A stretch of DNA of 13,920 nt from Candidatus Poseidoniales archaeon. Lineage in GTDB: Archaea; Thermoplasmatota; Poseidoniia; MGIII; CG-Epi1. The stretch covers positions 1 to 13,920 of the forward strand of contig DQOP01000126.1 of NCBI GenBank assembly GCA_015658585.1, given 5' to 3'. Under the pieces are notes generated by a model that had not been told where the DNA came from, searched no databases, and worked only from the letters and a program-made list of their open reading frames with translations. Shown piece by piece: positions 1-13,136 of the stretch; position 1 is the stretch's first letter, and every line of letters begins with the position of its first letter. Both the position numbers and the translations under genes were made by a program.

Positions 1-192
1 ATGGACAACGGTCGAGTTTATCACTTTTCCATTACCCTTGAATTGGTAATCTTCCATATTTCCTATTGATTCCCTTCCAGCCTCCGGATTAAAACTTCTC
101 TTGGGGTAGTGGTAGGTATTTGTTATCTTACAATGGGATCCTACCAGGTTGTAGCGTGATTCTATCTCTCTCCAGAATCTTGGTACCGACAT
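1..192 (-). CDS. DUF35 (rubredoxin-like zinc ribbon + OB-fold) protein, N-terminal part, cut by window edge
   Basis: The first 64 residues are present; the rest lies beyond position 1. The ATG overlaps the thiolase stop by one base (TAATG), with a GAGGCGG purine run just upstream. The N-terminus (MSVPRFWREIESRYNLVGSHC) has the aromatic helix and the 'L(V/I)GSKC' entry typical of archaeal DUF35 proteins. The segment ending FKGNGKVINSTVVH resembles the first OB-fold strands. In archaea this protein sits between thiolase and HMG-CoA synthase in one complex and helps hold the CoA moiety during acetoacetyl-CoA transfer; its position after those two genes fits. Oddly, only the first Cys of the usual CxxC...CxxC ribbon is seen (Cys21). 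The other three positions read Thr, Asn and Ala by eye, so zinc binding is probably lost. Family identity is fairly safe; OB-fold completeness cannot be judged. Confidence 0.8.
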   Translation of the reverse strand, partial: MSVPRFWREIESRYNLVGSHCKITNTYHYPKRSFNPEAGRESIGNMEDYQFKGNGKVINSTVVH

Positions 193-1358
193 TAATCCGC
201 CTCTAGTATGTGTACTACGGCAGTTGCCGCTGTACCGCCATGATTTTCCGCCAGTCCTATTTTGGCACCTTTGATTTGTCTTTTTCCTGCTTCACCTCTA
301 AGTTGCTGAACTATCTCTACCACTTGAGCGATTCCAGTAGCACCTGGGGCATGGCCACGGGCCTTCAATCCACCACTTGTGTTTACAGCAATCTTCCCAC
401 CTAATCTGGTCTCACCTTTGAACCCCATAGAAGCAGCCTTGCCTCGTTTAAATATTCCAATTTCTTCCAAGGCTATTATCTCAGTGATTGTAAAGTTGTC
501 ATGAACTTCAACCAGATCTAAATCCTTAGTCTTTTTCCCACAACTTTTGAATGCTCTTTTGGCTGCAATACCTATTGCAGGCAGTCGATTCAAATATTTA
601 CGGTGGTGCAAACTCAATGTGTCAGATGCCTGCCCTGATCCGATAATCCTAATTGATTCTTTTTTGAATTTTTTGGCTTTATCGGTTGCGCAAAGAACCA
701 CAGCCGCAGCTCCATCGCTATTTGGTGCACAGTCCAACATCCGTAAAGGACTGGAAACCATTCCTGAATTAGAGACAGCCTCTCCAGAGACTTGAAATGG
801 GAATTGAGCCATAGGATTCAGTGATGCGTGATAATGATTCTTCTCAGAAACCGCGGAAAGTTCCTCTCGACTGGTTCCATATTCATTCATGTGGCTTTGC
901 GCAATCATTGCATGCAATGAGGCAAAAGTAGCACCAGCCTGGGATTCCCATTGTTCATCAGACCCCATACTTACAGTGTATGAAGATTCCGAATCACTAA
1001 CATCCGTCATCTTCTCCGCGCCTCCTACAACTGCAATGTCAATGAATCCACCAGCAATGGCCATGTACGCCTGTCTGATTGCTAACCCACCAGAAGCTGA
1101 TGCAGCTTCGACCCTGGTTGCCGGCACGTTCAGATTGGTCAAACCACAATAGTCAGCTATCAGGGCGCTTACATGTTCTTGTTGTAGAGTGGATCCTGCA
1201 GCCATGTTTCCAATATACAACGCGTCAATGTCTTTGCTTGTTATTCCAGCATCACTTATCGCCGCGAGTCCTGTTTCTAGACCTAATTCCCGAAGCGATT
1301 TCTCCCACAACTCACCGAATTTAGTTATCCCTATTCCAATTACGCTAACATCCCTCAA
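192..1358 (-). CDS. Archaeal SCP-x-type acetyl-CoA acetyltransferase (thiolase) with Ser at the nucleophile position
   Basis: Expected role: condensation of two acetyl-CoA to acetoacetyl-CoA, the first mevalonate-pathway step, in a cytosolic complex with HMG-CoA synthase and DUF35. The 388-residue length and the N-terminus MRDVSVIGIGITKFGELW match archaeal thiolases, supporting a TTG start that overlaps the synthase stop by 4 nt (TTGA); a GGGGGG purine run lies just upstream. Conserved pieces include EKMTDVSD, the LDCAPNSDGAAA segment, the HDNF motif and NTSGGLKARGHAPGATG with the active-site His. However, the nucleophile motif VEAACASGG reads VEAASASGG: codon 87 (1098-1100) is TCA, Ser. The C-terminal HN(V/I)GG motif reads ENHGG. 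The enzyme may therefore be inactive or altered, while the frame is intact and the fold well preserved. Identity as a thiolase homologue is sure; activity is doubtful. Confidence 0.93.
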   Translation of the reverse strand: MRDVSVIGIGITKFGELWEKSLRELGLETGLAAISDAGITSKDIDALYIGNMAAGSTLQQEHVSALIADYCGLTNLNVPATRVEAASASGGLAIRQAYMAIAGGFIDIAVVGGAEKMTDVSDSESSYTVSMGSDEQWESQAGATFASLHAMIAQSHMNEYGTSREELSAVSEKNHYHASLNPMAQFPFQVSGEAVSNSGMVSSPLRMLDCAPNSDGAAAVVLCATDKAKKFKKESIRIIGSGQASDTLSLHHRKYLNRLPAIGIAAKRAFKSCGKKTKDLDLVEVHDNFTITEIIALEEIGIFKRGKAASMGFKGETRLGGKIAVNTSGGLKARGHAPGATGIAQVVEIVQQLRGEAGKRQIKGAKIGLAENHGGTAATAVVHILEAD

Positions 1359-2401
1359 TTCGAACCCCCCATTCTCAATTTTCCTCTATATTTTGCATAT
1401 GTGGCATAGTTTACAATCTTCATCCTTGAGATCATGTCTTCTACGGTCTCACTGCGGTCCATTTTTTCTATGTTCTCTGTTACAGTGATGTCAAAACCAT
1501 CGCTTCCCGCTCCAGACCCGTATGCCACCGCTAAAATCCTATCACCTGGTTTTGCGATGTCCAGAATAGCTGCAAGACCTAAGAAAATAGCACCAGAATA
1601 AGTATTTCCGATTCTGGGAGTGAGTAATCCGGTTTCAAATTGTTCTGCAGTGAAACCCAATGCTTTTGCAGCCCTAATTGGAAATTTACCATTAGGTTGA
1701 TGGGTTACAATATAATCATAGTCTTTTGCTTCTGTACCTGCCATTTCCATGGTCTTCAGACCACAACTCATAACATGTTTGAAGAAGGCTGGTTTACCAG
1801 TAAAACGTCCACCATGCCTTGGATATTTCTGACCCTCTCTCCTCCAGAAATCCGGTGTATCTGTTGTATAAGAAGTGGTATGGTTTATATCAGCAATCAC
1901 TTTCTTGCTACCGATTATGAGTGCCCCTCCACCGGCTGAAGCGCTGTATTCCAAGGCATCACCTGGAGCACCTTGGGAGGTATCAACCCCAATTGCAATT
2001 CCATTCTCCACCTGTTTGTCACCGACCATTCCCATACATGTTTGGATTGCCGCTGTACCAGCTTTACATGCAAATTCAAAGTCAGCTGCAGTTAGATGTG
2101 GTGTTGCTCTTATTGCTTGAGCAACGATGGTGGATGTAGGTTTCACAGCATATGGGTGCGATTCCGAACCTGTGTAAATAGCTCCAATGTTGTCCCCATT
2201 CAATTTTGCTCTTTTCATAGCTTGTCGCGTCGCCTCGACAGAGATGGTTATCACGTCCTCATCAGGGCCTGGCACGGATTTTGAGTAGACATTCAAATTT
2301 TTAGCCCAAGCACTACCATCTGCGCCCCATACAGACGCGATCTCTCCAGTTTCGATTTTATGGCAGGGTATATACGCCCCATAGCTTACTATTCCACTCA
2401 T
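1355..2401 (-). CDS. Hydroxymethylglutaryl-CoA synthase, archaeal type
   Basis: Condenses acetyl-CoA with acetoacetyl-CoA to HMG-CoA, the second step of the mevalonate route to archaeal isoprenoid lipids. The 348-residue length is normal for the archaeal family. Catalytic residues are visible: Glu80 in YTGSESHPYA, nucleophile Cys112 in DFEFACKAGT and His234 in THQPNGKFP. The family motif SVPGPDEDV is at 42-50 and the C-terminal AYGSGAGSDGF loop at 293-303. The ATG has a clear Shine-Dalgarno, AGGAG (2407-2411), which overlaps the regulator stop codon; the gap to the regulator is 8 nt. The stop overlaps the thiolase start by 4 nt, so translation is probably coupled. Unlike its thiolase and DUF35 neighbours, every key residue is retained. 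Confidence 0.96.
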   Translation of the reverse strand: MSGIVSYGAYIPCHKIETGEIASVWGADGSAWAKNLNVYSKSVPGPDEDVITISVEATRQAMKRAKLNGDNIGAIYTGSESHPYAVKPTSTIVAQAIRATPHLTAADFEFACKAGTAAIQTCMGMVGDKQVENGIAIGVDTSQGAPGDALEYSASAGGGALIIGSKKVIADINHTTSYTTDTPDFWRREGQKYPRHGGRFTGKPAFFKHVMSCGLKTMEMAGTEAKDYDYIVTHQPNGKFPIRAAKALGFTAEQFETGLLTPRIGNTYSGAIFLGLAAILDIAKPGDRILAVAYGSGAGSDGFDITVTENIEKMDRSETVEDMISRMKIVNYATYAKYRGKLRMGGSN

Positions 2402-2409
2402 TTTTTCTC

Positions 2410-3090
2410 CTATTTAAGATACCTCAGTCTTTCTACAATCGTGCTTTCATCAAGGTCCGTTTTGACCAAGACCACTTTTTCCATATCAGCCAGTTTGAGT
2501 GCTAACGGGTCTACTGCCTTTGGTTTGACATAAACCACCATCCTAGGTTTGACAGGATGGGCCCTAACTGCGATCATAGGTGATCTGCCGTAGTGCACAC
2601 CAGAGAAGAATAGAGCTCTTTCATTTGACCAACCATACATTTCACCAAACGCATTGAAAGTAGTGATGGCCTTCAGTGAATCAACTATAGTATATCCATA
2701 GATGGGCCTTTCAATTATCTCCTCACTACCTGCCAGTACTTCTCCTTCTATCTTTTCAATGATAGATTCTATTGAGATTCCACTAGTGAATTCCCTTATG
2801 TCAACTATAGCTTTGTTGGTACGTGTACCTGCCATGGTGTTTACTACTTTTCCACCATGTGATGAGTCATAGTCGACCATCGCTTCTACAAATTTTCTCA
2901 CAGTTACAATGCCTGGTGATGCTCTGCGTCCCTTCTCGAAATCACAAACTACAGAAGGATTCACTTCGAGTAATGTCGCAAGCTCCTTCTGTGATAATTG
3001 AAATATTTCCCTCCACTTCCTCAGAGTCTCACCTGGCTTTTCCGAAACAACGATTTCTCCAGCCATCCGGCGAGTTAGTTGTTCTTGCAC
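2410..3090 (-). CDS. XRE-family (COG1709-like) archaeal transcriptional regulator, probable mevalonate operon regulator
   Basis: A DNA-binding protein of about 226 residues. A Cro/CI-type helix-turn-helix lies at roughly residues 20-60 (KWREIFQLSQKELATLLEVN, then PSVVCDFEKGRR). An alpha/beta C-terminal region follows that could sense a ligand or another protein. Archaeal regulators of this type are commonly found directly upstream of HMG-CoA synthase, so control of this operon, including its own gene, is likely but inferred. Start choice: an upstream GTG at 3108 is in frame, but the TATA-like box at 3111-3120 would leave it outside the transcript. The GTG at 3090 lies about 26 nt from the box, fitting a leaderless mRNA. 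An ATG at 3066 (MAGEIVV) is a third option, since recognisable homology begins near it. The stop is TAG. Confidence 0.85.
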   Translation of the reverse strand: MQEQLTRRMAGEIVVSEKPGETLRKWREIFQLSQKELATLLEVNPSVVCDFEKGRRASPGIVTVRKFVEAMVDYDSSHGGKVVNTMAGTRTNKAIVDIREFTSGISIESIIEKIEGEVLAGSEEIIERPIYGYTIVDSLKAITTFNAFGEMYGWSNERALFFSGVHYGRSPMIAVRAHPVKPRMVVYVKPKAVDPLALKLADMEKVVLVKTDLDESTIVERLRYLK

Positions 3091-3110
3091 ATGGTTCGAT
3101 TTCGACACAC

Positions 3111-3120: not shown

Positions 3121-3170
3121 TATGTGTATCTGACTTCGTCAATCAGCTTACTTTATGTCCTTGAAATGCA

Positions 3171-3181
3171 ATTATTATATA
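3171..3181 (+). promoter_or_regulatory. TATA-like box of the arginine decarboxylase gene
   Basis: ATTATTATATA is centred about 24 nt upstream of the ATG at 3200, giving a predicted transcription start at or next to the start codon. A GAGGT run at 3190-3194 could also act as a Shine-Dalgarno if the transcript starts further upstream. This box and the minus-strand box at 3111-3120 lie about 60 bp apart in the divergent spacer. Confidence 0.5.
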
Positions 3182-3199
3182 GGCAACAAGAGGTTGAAA

Positions 3200-3760
3200 A
3201 TGGTGAACTCAACAAATTGGATTCCCAAAAACATATTTTTAACCAAAGGCACTGGTGTTCATAATGAGAAACTCGCGTCCTTTGAACTTGCTTTGAGATC
3301 TGCTGGTATTGCTAGCTATAACCTGATTTCCGTTTCTTCAATCCTGCCACCACATTGTTCAATTATTGATTCTGAGAAAGGAAATCGAATGCTCAATTCT
3401 GGCCAGGTGGTTCCTGTTGTTCTGGCACGCTCAGAGAGTAATAAAGCAGATACACTGGTAAGTTCTGGAGTCGGCATCGCAATACCAAGAAACCAGGATG
3501 ATTATGGATATCTTTCCGAGCATCATGCGACAGGTATGGATGCACGTCAGGTAGAGGATTATGTCGAGGACCTTGCGGCTGAGATGCTGGCAACTACCTA
3601 TGGCCTCCAATTCGATCCTGACGCTTCGTGGGACAAGAAGCGTGAATTGTGGACGATTGATAACCGAATAGTAGAGACCAAGAGCATTGTTGCAGTTTCC
3701 CCCTCAGATTCTTCTGGAAAATGGACAACTGTTGTTTGTGCCGCAGTTTTGATTATCTAA
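3200..3760 (+). CDS. pdaD: Pyruvoyl-dependent arginine decarboxylase (proenzyme)
   Basis: Decarboxylates arginine to agmatine, the first step of archaeal polyamine synthesis. The 186-residue proenzyme should cleave itself between Ser46 and Ser47 in SVSSILPP, turning Ser47 into the pyruvoyl cofactor. Other family marks are the N-terminal KNIFLTKGTGVHNEKLASFE, the GIAIPRNQDDYGYLSEHHA segment with the catalytic-region Glu, EDLAAEMLATTYGLQFDPD, and the C-terminal KWTTVVCAAV strand. The frame is open 45 nt further upstream, but the start at 3200 was chosen because family homology begins a few residues after it, a GAGGT precedes it and a TATA-like box lies 24 nt upstream. It is transcribed divergently from the mevalonate operon; no functional tie is evident. 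Confidence 0.95.
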   Translation: MVNSTNWIPKNIFLTKGTGVHNEKLASFELALRSAGIASYNLISVSSILPPHCSIIDSEKGNRMLNSGQVVPVVLARSESNKADTLVSSGVGIAIPRNQDDYGYLSEHHATGMDARQVEDYVEDLAAEMLATTYGLQFDPDASWDKKRELWTIDNRIVETKSIVAVSPSDSSGKWTTVVCAAVLII

Positions 3761-7114: not shown

Positions 7115-7390
7115 ATGTTAAGATTAACATTCTTTCTAGCAGGATTTTTGGCAGTCTTGGATTTTTATTTAGCTGAATCAACACCAGTTCAGGTTGTTTC
7201 AGTTCTCTGTGTAATTGTCACCCTCGGAGTGGCTCTTCTCTGGCCTGATCCTTTGCCACTTCCACCTTCATTAGATTTGTGGTCCGAGGCTCCAGAGACA
7301 AAGGAGCGTGAGATGAAACACTGTCCTAATTGTGGCAAGACAGTTGACCAGAAATGGTCGATGTGCCCATATTGTTCGAAGAAGGTATGA
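7115..7390 (+). CDS. Small two-helix membrane protein with C-terminal zinc ribbon
   Basis: A 91-residue protein starting 4 nt after the acyl-CoA synthetase. Residues 3-20 and 25-43 are hydrophobic and probably form two membrane helices joined by a short AESTPVQ turn. A proline-rich linker (LLWPDPLPLPP) follows, then a charged stretch. The C-terminus carries a double-CxxC zinc ribbon, Cys70/Cys73 and Cys84/Cys87 (HCPNCGKTVDQKWSMCPYC), probably on the cytosolic side. Its stop overlaps the next gene's ATG by 4 nt (ATGA), so it is surely co-translated with the oxoprolinase. Similar zinc-ribbon tails are common in archaeal membrane proteins of unknown role. No function is assigned; the neighbours suggest some link to a membrane-associated metabolic step. 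Confidence 0.8.
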   Translation: MLRLTFFLAGFLAVLDFYLAESTPVQVVSVLCVIVTLGVALLWPDPLPLPPSLDLWSEAPETKEREMKHCPNCGKTVDQKWSMCPYCSKKV

Positions 7391-10300
7391 GCAAATGGTT
7401 TTTTGCAGTAGACAGAGGCGGGACTTTTACGGATATCATAGGAATCGATCCTTCAAACAACATTCATACCTCTAAAATTCTTTCGGAGTCTTCATCATAT
7501 TCTGACCCCGTAATTTCAGGCATACGTCAAATTCTGAATTTGCAATCAAGTGACAAAATACCTTCAGATAGAATAGAAAGAATACGTATTGGTACTACCG
7601 TAGCGACCAATGCTCTTCTTGAACGCAAAGGATCCAAGACAGCATTATTGATTACCTCTGGTTTTGTTGATCTTTTAGAAATAGGAAATCAGGCAAGACC
7701 TGAACTTTTTGATCTTTCAATAGTCAAACCGGAACAATTGTACCATTCAGTTTCCGAAGTTCATGAGCGCCTGGATGCTGAAGGCAACATAATTCTTGAA
7801 TTAGATGAAGAACGTTTAGGAAGAGATTTAAAAGATTTGTACAGTTCTGGAATTAAGTCTGTGGCAATTGTCCTGATGCATTCCTGGAAAAATCCGATGC
7901 ATGAAGAAAGGTGCTACGATGTAGCACACGAAATAGGATTCAAGAACATTTCGATTTCAAGTCGGATAATGCCAATAATCAAGATTGTTGGGCGGGGCCA
8001 AACAACAGTTGTTGACTCATATCTATATCCTATTCTTAGCCAATATATCTCGTCATTACGGAGTGAATTAGGAGAAATACCTATCGAGCTTATGCAAAGT
8101 TCAGGAGGATTAACAGATGATCTATCATTAACTGGTAAAGATGCAATACTGTCAGGTCCAGCAGGGGGAGTCATAGGTTCAGCGGCAGTTGGAAACGCAA
8201 ATAATCTTGATTGCATAATCGGCTTTGACATGGGAGGGACATCAACCGATGTTTCCAGGTATGATGGTAGTTTTACCAGAGTAACTGAACTAGAGGCTGG
8301 TGGAATAACTTTTCAAACTTCTAGTCTGGATATCAAAACCGTAGCTGCTGGTGGCGGATCTTTACTATGGTTTGATGGTCGAAAACTACAGGTTGGACCG
8401 GAGTCAGCCGGTGCCAATCCAGGGCCGGTTTGTTATGGTCTTGATGGGAAGTTAACGCTTACAGACGCCAATTTGCTTCTCGGGCGAATAAATCCTGATT
8501 TTTTCCCTCAAGTATTTGGTCCAGAGCAGAATCAGAAATTGAATACAAGCGAGTCTGAAGATAATTTTGAAAACTTGAGGTCCGAGGTCAATAAGAGTAC
8601 CTTATCATCCCTCTCATCAGAAGAGTTAGCCCTTGGTTTTGTCGATATAGCCAACGAGAAAATGGCAGGAGCAATTAAGGAAATATCTGTTTCTCGCGGT
8701 TATGATGTTAGGGAGCATGCACTTGTATGCTTTGGAGGAGCGGCCCCCCAGCATTGTTGTGGGATAGCTAGAATCCTTGGAATCAAGCGAATAGTAATTC
8801 ATCCACTTTCCAGCCTCCTTTCAGCTTATGGAATTGCGAATTCTAAGCAATTTAGATATGGTCTTAGATCCATGGTGCTGAAATTTGACTCACAATCACA
8901 TGCAGAAGCCTTGTCTGGGATTCAGTCATTGGAATCTCCCCTGATTGAGGAAATTCAGAAGCTTGGTGTATCTCCAGACAATATTACCAAGAAACATTTT
9001 ATGGATTTACGTGTTGCAGGCACAGATAGTACTATTACAATTCCATGTTCCAATTTTGACCAGATGGTTGGATCCTTTGAAGAGAGGCACAGAAACTTAT
9101 TTGGTTTTTCACCCTCCGGAGAGTTAGAAATTGCCAACATCCGAGTCGAAGTCTCCGGCAGCAGGACGGAAATTGAAGAGCAGAAACCTAATCCTGATTT
9201 ATCCAGACCAGCCACGATTGGTCAATCAGAGGTGTATTTCAACCATCAATTTATGAGCACTTCCATCTATTCAAGGGATTCCTTGCCCGAAGGATTTGAA
9301 TTGGCTGGACCTGCGATGATAACTGACCTCAATTCAACTATAGTAATTGAACCTGGATTTACAGCTGGTATCAATGGGTTTGGGCATATTGTCATTGATC
9401 AAAAGACGTTTCATAAATCACAGATCACAACAGAAAAGGACCCAGTTTCCTTGGAGATCTTCAATAATCTATTCATGAGTATAGCTGAGCAAATGGGTTT
9501 TACCCTGAAGAACACGGCCCATTCTGTCAATATTAAGGAGAGACTTGATTTTTCTTGCGCACTTTTTGACGACGAAGGTAATCTGGTCGCCAATGCACCC
9601 CATGTCCCTGTGCATCTGGGTGCTATGGGTGAATCTGTGAAATCAATTATTGCCTCTAATGAAGGTAGAATGAAAGATGGTGATTTCTATCTGATCAATA
9701 ATCCTCATAAGGGTGGTTCACACCTGCCCGATCTGACGGTTATCTCTCCAGTTTTCTCAGGTTCACAAGAACCAATATTCTATGCAGCAAGTAGAGGCCA
9801 TCATGCAGATATTGGAGGCATAACACCAGGTTCAATCCCCCCATTCTCGACCTCGATTCACGAGGAGGGAATCATAATAGATAATTTTCGGATTGTCGAG
9901 AACGGAATATTGAAGGAAAAAGAGTTTGAGGATTTGATGCGTTCTTCTGAAAATCCAGCTAGAAACATAGAAGAAAGAAAACATGACATCAATGCCCAGA
10001 TTGCCGCGGTCAGAAAGGGTATTTTGGAAATAGATGGTTTAATCGAAAAATATGGTCTACCAACAGTTCAAGCTTACATGGGATATATCCGGGAAAACTC
10101 GGCAGAAGCGATGAGCGATGCTTTGGAAGAATATCTTGGTGATGAGGGAAGCAAGGAAAGCAGTTTTGAGGATTTTCTGGATGATGGAGCAAAGATAGCG
10201 GTAAATATTAAGGTGATGAAGCGAGAAGACAGGGTTCCTTCTTTCCATGCAGTAGTTGATTTTAATGGTACCAGCCCTCAGATGGAGAACAATCTGAATG

Positions 10301-11010
10301 CTCCAATCGCAGTTACTAAAGCAGCAGTGTTGTACGTTTTTAGGCTTCTGATCAATAAGGATATTCCTCTTAATTCGGGATGTCTAGACCAAATTGAGAT
10401 AATCATCCCCGATGGTTCCTTGTTGAACCCAGATGATAACGCTGCCGTGGTTGGAGGTAATGTTGAGACCTCACAGCGCATTACCGATGTCTTGCTGGGT
10501 GCTCTGGGGATTGCAGCTGCTTCGCAGGGGACAATGAACAATTTTGTGTTCGGTCCCGCTGATGACTCCGGGAATCAGTATTACGAAACGATAGCTGGAG
10601 GTTCAGGAGCAACTGAAGGTAGTGACGGCGCCTCGGCCGTCCAAGTCCATATGACCAATACGAGATCTACAGATCCTGAAATTCTTGAGCATCGGTTTAG
10701 GGAGATCAGGCTTGAATCATTCAGAATTCGTCACGGTTCAGGCGGTGATGGAAAAAACAAGGGTGGTGATGGCGTCATACGCGAGATTAATTTTCTGGAA
10801 CCAAGAAAAGTATCAATAGTCTCGGAAAGACGCAAAATTCCTCCTTACGGTGTTTCTGGTGGTGAACCTGCTTCCTGTGGTTCCAACCTTCTTAGGAAAG
10901 TATCAGGTGAGGAGATTGATTTAGGAGGTAAGGTTGAGAGGATTATTGAGTCTGGGGAGACTGTGATTATCAACACCCCCGGTGGTGGAGGTTTTGGTTC
11001 CAAAATCTGA
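7387..11010 (+). CDS. Fused HyuA-HyuB protein, ATP-dependent 5-oxoprolinase-like
   Basis: A 1207-residue fusion of the hydantoinase/oxoprolinase A and B subunits, close to the length of single-chain 5-oxoprolinase. The likely reaction is ATP-driven opening of 5-oxoproline to glutamate; N-methylhydantoin or a related cyclic amide is the alternative. HyuA half (1 to about 680): GGTFTDI (11-17), [13 protein letters not shown], the actin-like ATPase loop [11 protein letters not shown] (279-289), [23 protein letters not shown] and CFGGAAPQH (about 448-456). HyuB half (about 685-1207): [44 protein letters not shown] (near 805), [11 protein letters not shown] and the Gly-rich end TPGGGGFGS. The frame is open 33 nt further upstream, but the ATG at 7387 is chosen: it overlaps the preceding stop as ATGA, follows a GAAGGT, and homology starts at once. 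No frame break is seen. Confidence 0.92.
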
Positions 11011-11045: not shown

Positions 11046-13136
11046 ATGATGCGAAGACTGAATGTTGTTATGATTGTCGCCTTTTTTGTCTTTTCAACTC
11101 TTCCAACATCTGGCTCTAACTTGGAACCTGGATCAGAAGTTTATCTCTCTGAGATTCCCAAAGTCAAGACTAATGAATGGCGGGAATCCTCATGGTGGGA
11201 AACGACAATTCGAGATTTGAACCGTAATGGGATAGTAGATTGGCTCGAGCCTCTTGAAGACGAATATCAGGTTGGCGTATCTTTCGTTTCGCAACCAACT
11301 GATGAAGATCTGCAAGCTCTGGTCGACTTAGGCTTGGAAGTCAGATATCATCTGACTTCGGTAAATGCCCTTCTTCTGGGCTTTGTTGAACCAGATTTGT
11401 ACCCACAGATTTCTCAGCTTTCAGGTGTAGTAATGATTGAACCTTATGGAAGCGTGGTGTTCTATGGTGACGTCCAAACACCTGCTGTCAAGGCCAGTAA
11501 TTCCTCAGTTTATCCAGAAGGAGCCTGGGATCTCGGATTTACGGGTAAAGGAGTCAATATTGCTATTGTTGATACTGGAATTGACAATGAACATCCGGGA
11601 CTTGAAGGCAAATTTGTTGCAGGTTTTGATGCAGTCTGTACTGATGATCCACTTTGTTTGGCATCTCTTCAGGAGGATGACGGAAGTTTTGATCCGGATG
11701 ATCAGAATCAGCATGGAACTGCGTGTTCAGGCATGGCTACGAGTACAGGCCTTCTGTCCGGTGGTGAGAAAACCAATTTCACTGGAGCTGCACCGGATGC
11801 CAAGCTAGTTGATGTCAGAATCGGAACTGCATTCGGGGCTGGACCTTTTGAGAATTACATACTTGAGCAAGAATTTTACGAATCTGCTATGAATGGCATT
11901 CAGTGGGTAATTGATAACAAAGATACAGCATGGCCCGGAGCAGAAAACGAGAGTTATGGTATAGATGTAATTTCTTTATCCTGGGGAATCACCTCGCATG
12001 AGGATGGTGGTTCAGATGGAACAGACATGTTCTCAAGAATATTGGATGAGGCCACTTTGGCAGGCATTGCTGTTTCAGTGGCTGCAGGAAACAGTGGGTC
12101 TGATAATGATGGATTGTCTGGGATGGGTGCATCCAGTCTTTCGATTACGGTCGGAGCACTTGATGACAAGAATACAATAGATCGTGTTGATGATGGTATT
12201 GCTTCATATTCCAGTCGTGGCCCTCGCAAGGACAACAATGATGGCAACCCTTACGATGAGATGAAACCGGATATCTCAGCACCAGGAACAAATATAGTCC
12301 AGGCAGAGGCCTGCTATGCTAGTGGAAGTTGCTACAATAGGATCCCTGGTCAGGATGCCTCAGATAATGGATATAGTGGCCGAGGTAGTGGAACGTCCTA
12401 CGCAACCCCTTCAATTTCAGGAATAATTGCATTGGTACTAGAGGCCAATCCAGATTTGAATCCACTTGAGGTTCGGGAGATACTCCGCCTAACCGCAGAA
12501 AGAAAGGAAACACTTTCCTCTGCAGATGGAGAAGGTGTAGAGGATGGACCATGGGCAACGGAGCCAGATCTGGATCCCTACTGGAATCGCCATTTTGGGT
12601 GGGGTATGGTTGATGCCCATGCAGCCGTAAAAGCCGCGCTTGCGAATACTGACACTGAGAATCTTAACGTAGACTTACAGACCTATATCACTAATCAAGT
12701 AAGTGGCACTGAGTTTACAACATTTAGTGGAATCTCTTGGGCCAGAACTGATTCTATTGAGAAAGTGGAATACAGTTTGGATGGTAAGTCATGGAAAGAA
12801 GTTCAATACGAGAGCGGTTCTAATGCGTCCATATACCTTAATTGGGTCATTTCACTTGACACTGAAGAATTGGCATTTACTGGTGACCATGTCCTATTAG
12901 TGAGATCCGCTGGTGGAAATGGGACTCATTCCATTGCTGACCATTCAGAATTCTATGCTTATGGTGAATCGGCAGAAATGAAGAACGATCGGATGCTTGC
13001 GATTTTTGTTGTGGTTGGAACTCTAATCCTGTCTGTTGTTGGTGTTACAGCCTTCCGGAAGAAGTTATTCACCGAGAAAGCTGTGAAAACTAGTAAGGGA
13101 GCTATAAGAAAAGTAAAAGGGGGTTCATCTAAATGA
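11046..13136 (+). CDS. Exported, membrane-anchored subtilisin-like serine protease (S8)
   Basis: A 696-residue secreted endopeptidase. Residues 1-23 form a signal peptide (MMRR, hydrophobic core, TSGS). Residues about 25-150 are a prodomain with an I9-like segment (VSFVSQPTDEDLQALVDLGL). It includes an EF-hand/dockerin-like loop, DLNRNGIVDWLE (57-68), likely to bind calcium. The catalytic domain spans about 155-535: Asp176 (IVDTGID), His223 (NQHGTACSG), oxyanion Asn349 (AAGNSG) and Ser451 (GSGTSYATPS). Cys198/204 and Cys423/429 may pair as disulfides. Residues about 540-640 look like a beta-sandwich domain, and 650-669 form a C-terminal membrane anchor followed by a Lys-rich cytosolic tail. 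It is probably displayed on the cell surface to digest external protein. The reading frame is intact and all catalytic residues are present. Confidence 0.95.
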   Translation: MMRRLNVVMIVAFFVFSTLPTSGSNLEPGSEVYLSEIPKVKTNEWRESSWWETTIRDLNRNGIVDWLEPLEDEYQVGVSFVSQPTDEDLQALVDLGLEVRYHLTSVNALLLGFVEPDLYPQISQLSGVVMIEPYGSVVFYGDVQTPAVKASNSSVYPEGAWDLGFTGKGVNIAIVDTGIDNEHPGLEGKFVAGFDAVCTDDPLCLASLQEDDGSFDPDDQNQHGTACSGMATSTGLLSGGEKTNFTGAAPDAKLVDVRIGTAFGAGPFENYILEQEFYESAMNGIQWVIDNKDTAWPGAENESYGIDVISLSWGITSHEDGGSDGTDMFSRILDEATLAGIAVSVAAGNSGSDNDGLSGMGASSLSITVGALDDKNTIDRVDDGIASYSSRGPRKDNNDGNPYDEMKPDISAPGTNIVQAEACYASGSCYNRIPGQDASDNGYSGRGSGTSYATPSISGIIALVLEANPDLNPLEVREILRLTAERKETLSSADGEGVEDGPWATEPDLDPYWNRHFGWGMVDAHAAVKAALANTDTENLNVDLQTYITNQVSGTEFTTFSGISWARTDSIEKVEYSLDGKSWKEVQYESGSNASIYLNWVISLDTEELAFTGDHVLLVRSAGGNGTHSIADHSEFYAYGESAEMKNDRMLAIFVVVGTLILSVVGVTAFRKKLFTEKAVKTSKGAIRKVKGGSSK

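Follow-up and report, generated by a model that had tools for sequence, protein, structure and literature searches.

Whether an enzyme can keep its place in a pathway after losing the residue expected to do its chemistry is the question raised by the mevalonate-operon thiolase of a Marine Group III archaeon. The window, meaning the whole stretch of DNA analysed, comprises 13,920 nucleotides of a draft genome that is 55% complete, and its phylum is Thermoplasmatota by the names of relatives' records. Its thiolase passes the cut-off of NCBIfam PRK06064 (497 bits, cut-off 420), stays under that of the acetyl-CoA acetyltransferase model AcCoTHIOL_METTL (501 bits, cut-off 600), and has the Methanothermococcus thiolase 6ESQ as its closest solved structure by sequence (E 4.6e-100). 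Around residue 87 the open reading frame reads RVEAASASGGL, and in HMMER alignments Ser87 stands opposite the Cys of VEAACASG in 6ESQ and of IEAACASGG in 7yvy, so that the serine codon reported in the initial annotation is borne out. PMC6392133 gives the corresponding Cys85 of 6ESQ as the active Cys. The frame, described there as well kept, is indeed open over its full length, and the His of GHAPGATG is present as residue 336. The protein thus lacks the nucleophilic Cys in the CxS-type loop of a catalytic thiolase and also lacks the HDCF-loop Cys of SCP2-like thiolases (HDNF), while it retains the GHP-loop His. The HDCF-loop Cys matters for catalysis, to judge from a reference title in PMC6790690 and from excerpts of PMC12329534. 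The coordinates of these features are collected in the table.

Table. Features of the mevalonate operon and of its thiolase in the window.
Feature	Positions	Strand	Remarks
Mevalonate-operon thiolase, 388 aa, nucleophile lost	192..1358	minus	Matches to PRK06064, AcCoTHIOL_METTL and 6ESQ
Codon 87, TCA = Ser, at the nucleophile position (Cys85 of 6ESQ)	1098..1100	minus	
His336 of the GHP-type loop, kept	351..353	minus	Fixed in 68/68 MGIII-like proteins
Asn288, replacing the Cys of the HDCF loop (HDNF)	495..497	minus	
Glu371-Asn372-His373, beside the GG loop	240..248	minus	Glu371 and His373 MGIII-specific
Archaeal HMG-CoA synthase, catalytic Glu/Cys/His intact, overlapping the thiolase start by 4 bases	1355..2401	minus	TIGR00748, 526 bits, cut-off 353
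DUF35/OB-fold subunit, first 64 codons, running off the contig	1..192	minus	Continued on contig C48 as L002:147-599
HTH regulator-like gene heading the operon	2410..3108	minus	Weak HTH matches below curated cut-offs

The serine might owe its presence to sequencing error, a mixture of strains or gene decay, and the assembly is indeed fragmented here: positions 1-338 of the window match positions 338-1 of L002, on contig C48 of the same draft genome, at 96.7%, which suggests that strain variation broke the assembly at this overlap. Against such an origin, Ser87 is found in all 20 genomes of the window's family (f1) that have a match, its own included, one further member (G015) giving none; this was the check among relatives that the initial annotation had proposed. 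It is likewise present in all 68 Marine Group III-like (MGIII-like) proteins, that is, the window's and 67 others of at least 380 aa and 64% identity. Marine Group III records (L035, L036, L039) hold relatives of the window thiolase at 84-88% identity. Across 20 distinct genomes the codon is TCT in 7, TCC in 6, TCA in 5 and TCG in 2, and across 37 Marine Group III loci, duplicates included, it is TCT in 13, TCC in 11, TCA in 9 and TCG in 4. Because the codon turns over among all four TCN forms while the Ser stays, sequencing error cannot explain Ser87. The frames contain no stops, and the operon thiolase is under purifying selection: median NG86 dN/dS is 0.058 for the thiolase and 0.045 for HMG-CoA synthase (HMGS; 110 pairs each), 0.080 for DUF35 (82 pairs) and 0.085 for the regulator (106 pairs), values to be read with dS above 1 in many pairs and with duplicate genomes included. 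Error and decay were therefore rejected as explanations and retain only a negligible probability. A search for a phage origin gave no match.

The partners of this thiolase show no comparable loss of catalytic residues. It lies between HMGS and the DUF35 gene that starts at 192, and the adjacency of the three genes, seen in the window together with L002, is conserved in relatives; the regulator-like gene is kept beside HMGS in most of their loci. In the wider sample described below, the HMGS nucleophile Cys is present in 30/30 rows beside Cys-bearing thiolases and in 59/59 beside non-Cys ones, and the catalytic Glu and His, intact in the window's own HMGS, occur in every row with a letter at those columns. 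The PF01796 OB-fold domain of DUF35 was found in the part encoded on L002. At least four Cys occur in the DUF35 zinc-ribbon segment in 30/30 Cys rows and 57/60 non-Cys rows, and the three rows with fewer all come from the window's genus (G002, G012 and the window's own genome). One of the four zinc-binding Cys is left in 12/12 named loci of that genus, and the segment has four Cys in four loci of the sister genus. Elsewhere in the window, a pyruvoyl-dependent arginine decarboxylase gene (PvlArgDC, 183 bits; 3155-3760, plus strand) diverges from the mevalonate operon. Further along the same strand lie a gene for a single 1218-aa protein with hydantoinase/oxoprolinase A and B domains (7354-11010) and one for a subtilase-family protease with N-terminal signal-like and C-terminal hydrophobic stretches, read by eye (11046-13136).

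The initial annotation held that archaeal thiolases have Cys at this position, a generalization that fails, as many archaeal mevalonate-operon thiolases are without it. The search set comprised 150 Thermoplasmatota genomes, namely the window's draft and 149 that are at least 90% complete. Archaeal HMGS was found at 1e-40 in 109 of these. The operon thiolase was read in 89 of the 109 and also in G089, where the gene sits at a contig end, which makes 90 genomes in all. Family f18 accounts for 19 of the other 20 genomes with archaeal HMGS, and the last is the partial G141. Among the 90 operon thiolases 30 have Cys, and the remaining 60 carry Gly (34), Asp (13), Ser (6), Thr (5), Ala (1) or Glu (1); nine f2 rows and G039, in which the thiolase is not beside archaeal HMGS, are omitted from these residue tables. 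HMGS adjoins the thiolase in 89/90 loci and DUF35 does so in 90/90. In a second phylum, that of G082 and presumably Halobacteriota given its named members, 50 of 60 genomes were read, with Asp in 12 and Cys in 38, and the best matches in the other ten are at 37-40% identity. The 120 proteins nearest to the thiolase of Archaeoglobus veneficus, A. fulgidus included, all have Asp together with GH, and the named ones among them are mostly Archaeoglobales. Similarly, the 120 proteins nearest to an f18 sequence carry Thr (76) or Ser (44), and those inspected from Thermoplasma, Picrophilus, Ferroplasma, Acidiplasma and Thermogymnomonas have Thr. A peculiarity of this one genome was considered and given up once the operon thiolases of relatives had been read; nucleophile loss recurs in several archaeal lineages. 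Of 123 thiolase columns at least 95% conserved in the Cys set, 80 stay at least 90% conserved in the non-Cys set, and the 15 most eroded include 86, 87, 289, 336 and 371 near the catalytic loops, the other ten being scattered. A few thiolases keep the Cys with an altered HDCF loop (L286 of G223, L290 of G242, L291 of G230) or with the GHP His lost (L291 again, and L179 of G090); these are possible intermediates toward nucleophile loss.

The identity of the replacing residue bears on the two options that had been offered for this protein, a structural partner only or chemistry by serine, and the evidence leans toward the former. At position 87, relatives whose thiolase gene sits in the same operon setting carry Gly, Asp, Thr or Ala, and since Gly and Ala are unable to act as nucleophile, this range favors a structural partner. 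The loss of the HDCF Cys, together with other Cys-bearing thiolases in the genome and its relatives, points the same way. Serine chemistry nevertheless keeps some standing in Marine Group III, where neither Ser87 nor His336 varies. In such a scheme Ser87 would be the nucleophile, activated by His336, and the acetyl oxoester would be passed to a second acetyl-CoA. The use of all four TCN codons for an invariant Ser fits this, as does the existence of four genomes of family f16 with Cys and HDAF, which suggests that the HDCF Cys is perhaps not always needed. However, the Gly, Asp or Ala clades retain the same operon, and the corresponding substitution in human ACAT1, Cys126Ser, left 0% activity with expression similar to wild type (PMC6790690). 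Given that most of the Marine Group III genomes searched also hold other Cys thiolases, serine catalysis is considered improbable.

The pattern at His336 speaks to another possibility, namely that the emptied site has been repurposed, either for holding or gating acetoacetyl-CoA through residue 87 and His336 or for an aldol-type step. His336 is kept in 6/6 Ser and 11/13 Asp rows of the phylum table as against 10/34 Gly and 0/5 Thr rows, and Asp goes with His throughout the set nearest to the A. veneficus protein. Further, CtSal, a thiolase-like aldolase with Gly at the nucleophile position, is an example of such repurposing (PMC12329534). Yet the aldolases rely on the Tyr of YDxF, and the window has HDxF; residue 87, moreover, changes too often for a catalytic residue, at least 15 times on the tree among seven residues, Cys included. 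A new function of the site is about as unlikely as serine catalysis. The aligned sequences also leave room for relocation of the Cys elsewhere in the Marine Group III thiolase, for which Cys71 may be a candidate: it is fixed in the MGIII-like proteins and absent from that column in other rows. Glu371 and His373 are likewise fixed in this group and present in at most 10% of other rows.

If the operon thiolase is inactive, acetoacetyl-CoA would have to come from elsewhere, and a second Cys-containing thiolase, which the initial annotation had suggested looking for, is present in the window's genome. The only one seen in this draft is FadA-like, with CASS, GHP and CVGGG motifs, and adjoins a gene that, by reading of its sequence, is 3-hydroxyacyl-CoA dehydrogenase-like. 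Of 16 Marine Group III genomes searched, 15 hold at least one thiolase besides that of the operon and 13 have a strong classical thiolase (PF00108 E <1e-80), with complete motifs in the 6 of these 13 that were read. This strong type passes the TIGR01930 cut-off, reaches that of no narrower model, and is closest to 4o99 (E 9e-105); the classical thiolase of a Gly genome is closest to 4n44 (E 6e-137). In a set of 44 genomes, 40 have a non-Cys operon thiolase and 38 of these 40 have at least two PF00108 matches, the single-match genomes being G048 (0.9 Mb, Ser) and G079 (Gly). Across Thermoplasmatota a classical thiolase (PF00108 E <1e-50) occurs in 57/60 non-Cys genomes versus 8/30 Cys genomes, G089, G197 and G200 being the non-Cys ones without it. 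For any second PF00108 thiolase in both phyla the figures are 70/72 versus 14/66, a tally that omits G215 and G225 (no HMGS beside their thiolases) and whose exceptions are again G197 and G200. An assembly gap is likely in these two because they also lack a TiaS-like gene, which adjoins the classical thiolase in the three congeners opened. All 8 genomes used as controls, including the one that supplied the query, have this gene, never more than about 110 bases away from where the classical thiolase matches; its TiaS identity is presumed from its sequence. In the four f16 genomes read, which keep the Cys, no other PF00108 thiolase was found.

The association was set as a prediction on Thermoplasmatota before PF00108 was searched in the second phylum. 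Among the 30 best-matching genomes there, 29 have Cys and one has Asp, and a classical thiolase turned up in the Asp genome and in 0/29 Cys genomes; the operon protein of that Asp genome has the same sequence as one named Archaeoglobus veneficus. The next 20 genomes followed the prediction less closely: a classical thiolase was present in 8 and absent from 3 of the 11 with Asp, and present in 2 and absent from 7 of the 9 with Cys. The rule that a non-Cys residue requires a classical PF00108 thiolase thus failed in the Asp genomes G250, G266 and G214. In each of the three, a further thiolase-DUF35 pair is present that has Cys, HDCF and GHP, and the rule was broadened to any second thiolase after the data were seen.

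Shared ancestry limits how far such counts can be taken. A quick tree of 139 rows, built after the trait columns had been taken out, calls for five changes between Cys and non-Cys, at least three of them forced by well-supported branches; one supported set of 55 rows contains 54 non-Cys rows, Marine Group III among them, and one Cys row. The nucleophile has thus probably been lost about three to five times. With so few losses the association of a non-Cys residue with a second thiolase does not reach significance once phylogeny is taken into account (independent-pairs test, median p 0.5; other runs 1 and 0.5), and the genome counts overstate the evidence.

Joint absence provides a further view of the link between thiolase and HMGS. 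Families f2 (22 genomes) and f3 (14), of the window's class and taken here to be Marine Group II, have no archaeal HMGS at 1e-40. When 24 of their genomes were searched at 1e-10, 14 gave only weak HMGS matches (1e-11 to 1e-12), 13 of which lie in frames longer than 500 aa, and 10 gave none; the matches suggest that these families may use another type of HMGS. No thiolase match was found at 1e-30 in the 14 f3 genomes. A distant one (about 40%) is present in 20 of 22 f2 genomes, Cys-bearing and not beside HMGS in the nine of the 20 that were read. In this sample the operon thiolase thus goes with archaeal HMGS. Separately, three genomes of one genus in family f21 (G118, G132 and G207, 98-99% complete) have no archaeal HMGS at 1e-10; two of them have no operon thiolase at 1e-30 and G118 has one match at 1.3e-49, and their congeners G130 and G196 have both genes.

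The nucleophile residue has been lost in several lineages with partners intact and the operon kept, and other thiolases are present in most non-Cys genomes. These observations are best explained, with a probability of roughly 0.7, by a pseudo-thiolase that stays in the HMG-CoA synthase complex as a structural subunit and part of its CoA site, another thiolase making the acetoacetyl-CoA. In the archaeal thiolase/HMG-CoA synthase/DUF35 complex the thiolase normally makes acetoacetyl-CoA and hands it to HMG-CoA synthase. In an ancestor, supply of acetoacetyl-CoA would have shifted to a separate Cys-bearing enzyme, either an acetyl-CoA acetyltransferase-like thiolase or a second thiolase-DUF35 pair, and the operon thiolase would then have lost its nucleophile; the proposed order is that takeover preceded loss. 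The operon protein could not simply be dropped, as it would hold the complex together and form part of the shared CoA site needed by HMGS. In 6ESQ, CoA is bound where the three proteins meet (PMC6392133); a CoA site common to thiolase and HMGS lies at the contact between them (PMC12329534), DUF35 acts as a scaffold (PMC6996347), and PhlACB of Pseudomonas protegens is functional only if the whole operon is expressed, though its HMGS-like subunit has lost Cys and Glu (PMC6392133). From the 6ESQ site, PhlACB and the inactive ACAT1 variant we infer that the Marine Group III protein no longer has thiolase activity, does not make acetoacetyl-CoA, and remains because it helps to form the CoA site and the framework of HMGS, with the acetoacetyl-CoA coming from another thiolase.

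Several observations sit uneasily with the pseudo-thiolase reading. A mere scaffold would not require the fixation of Ser87 with His336 seen in Marine Group III, and the Asp forms nearest to A. veneficus also retain His336. The small number of changes on the tree leaves the association with a second thiolase without significance, and the rule for classical thiolases had to be widened after its failure in three Asp genomes. Further, only one PF00108 thiolase was seen in four non-Cys genomes (G197, G200, G048 and G079), the window's own draft shows none besides the operon enzyme other than the FadA-like one, and some Cys genomes also have a second thiolase. A broader version, put forward tentatively and rather doubtful at present, is that at least three times in archaea the first mevalonate enzyme may have been outsourced and the old thiolase turned into a permanent, non-catalytic docking subunit for acetoacetyl-CoA. 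Where residue 87 is Ser or Asp, as in Marine Group III and in Archaeoglobus and its relatives, this residue and His336 might bind the keto group of the arriving acetoacetyl-CoA until the substrate moves on to the HMGS site.

The implications reach beyond this operon. Such proteins are named thiolase, acetyl-CoA (C-)acetyltransferase, 3-ketoacyl-CoA thiolase or similar, and pathway reconstruction would assign to them the first step of isoprenoid lipid synthesis. If they are pseudo-enzymes, that step is performed in these archaea by a gene outside the operon, and they offer a case, provided by nature, of a substrate-channelling complex that has outlasted one of its catalysts. The question can be tested with proteins of named species, such as Archaeoglobus fulgidus, A. 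veneficus and Thermoplasma acidophilum. Among the titles and abstract openings listed in literature searches, none deals with missing nucleophiles in archaeal mevalonate thiolases, a point that the 2018 paper on the complex may mention.

Among known systems, the Methanothermococcus complex (6ESQ) is the most similar, with the same three genes together, a full-length match of the thiolase and intact catalytic residues in HMGS; it differs in that its Cys85 is Ser87 here and its HDCF is HDNF here, and in that DUF35 of the window's genus has one zinc-ribbon Cys. PDB 4yzo, a putative acyl-CoA acyltransferase, also has Ser at the aligned nucleophile position, but it is more distant from the window thiolase (E 8.5e-62) and was compared by sequence alone. 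The steroid aldolases Sal and Ltp2 (PMC12329534) share the thiolase fold and a DUF35 partner, and CtSal has Gly at the nucleophile position; they depend, however, on the Tyr of YDxF, which is absent from the HDNF loop of the window thiolase, and the gene here lies beside HMG-CoA synthase. A further parallel is PhlACB (PpATase, PDB 5M3K), a related thiolase/HMGS-like/DUF35 assembly (PMC6392133). It is the mirror image of the present case: there the HMGS-like PhlA is without its Cys (Gly115) and the thiolase-like PhlC keeps Cys88, whereas here the thiolase has lost its Cys and HMGS is intact.
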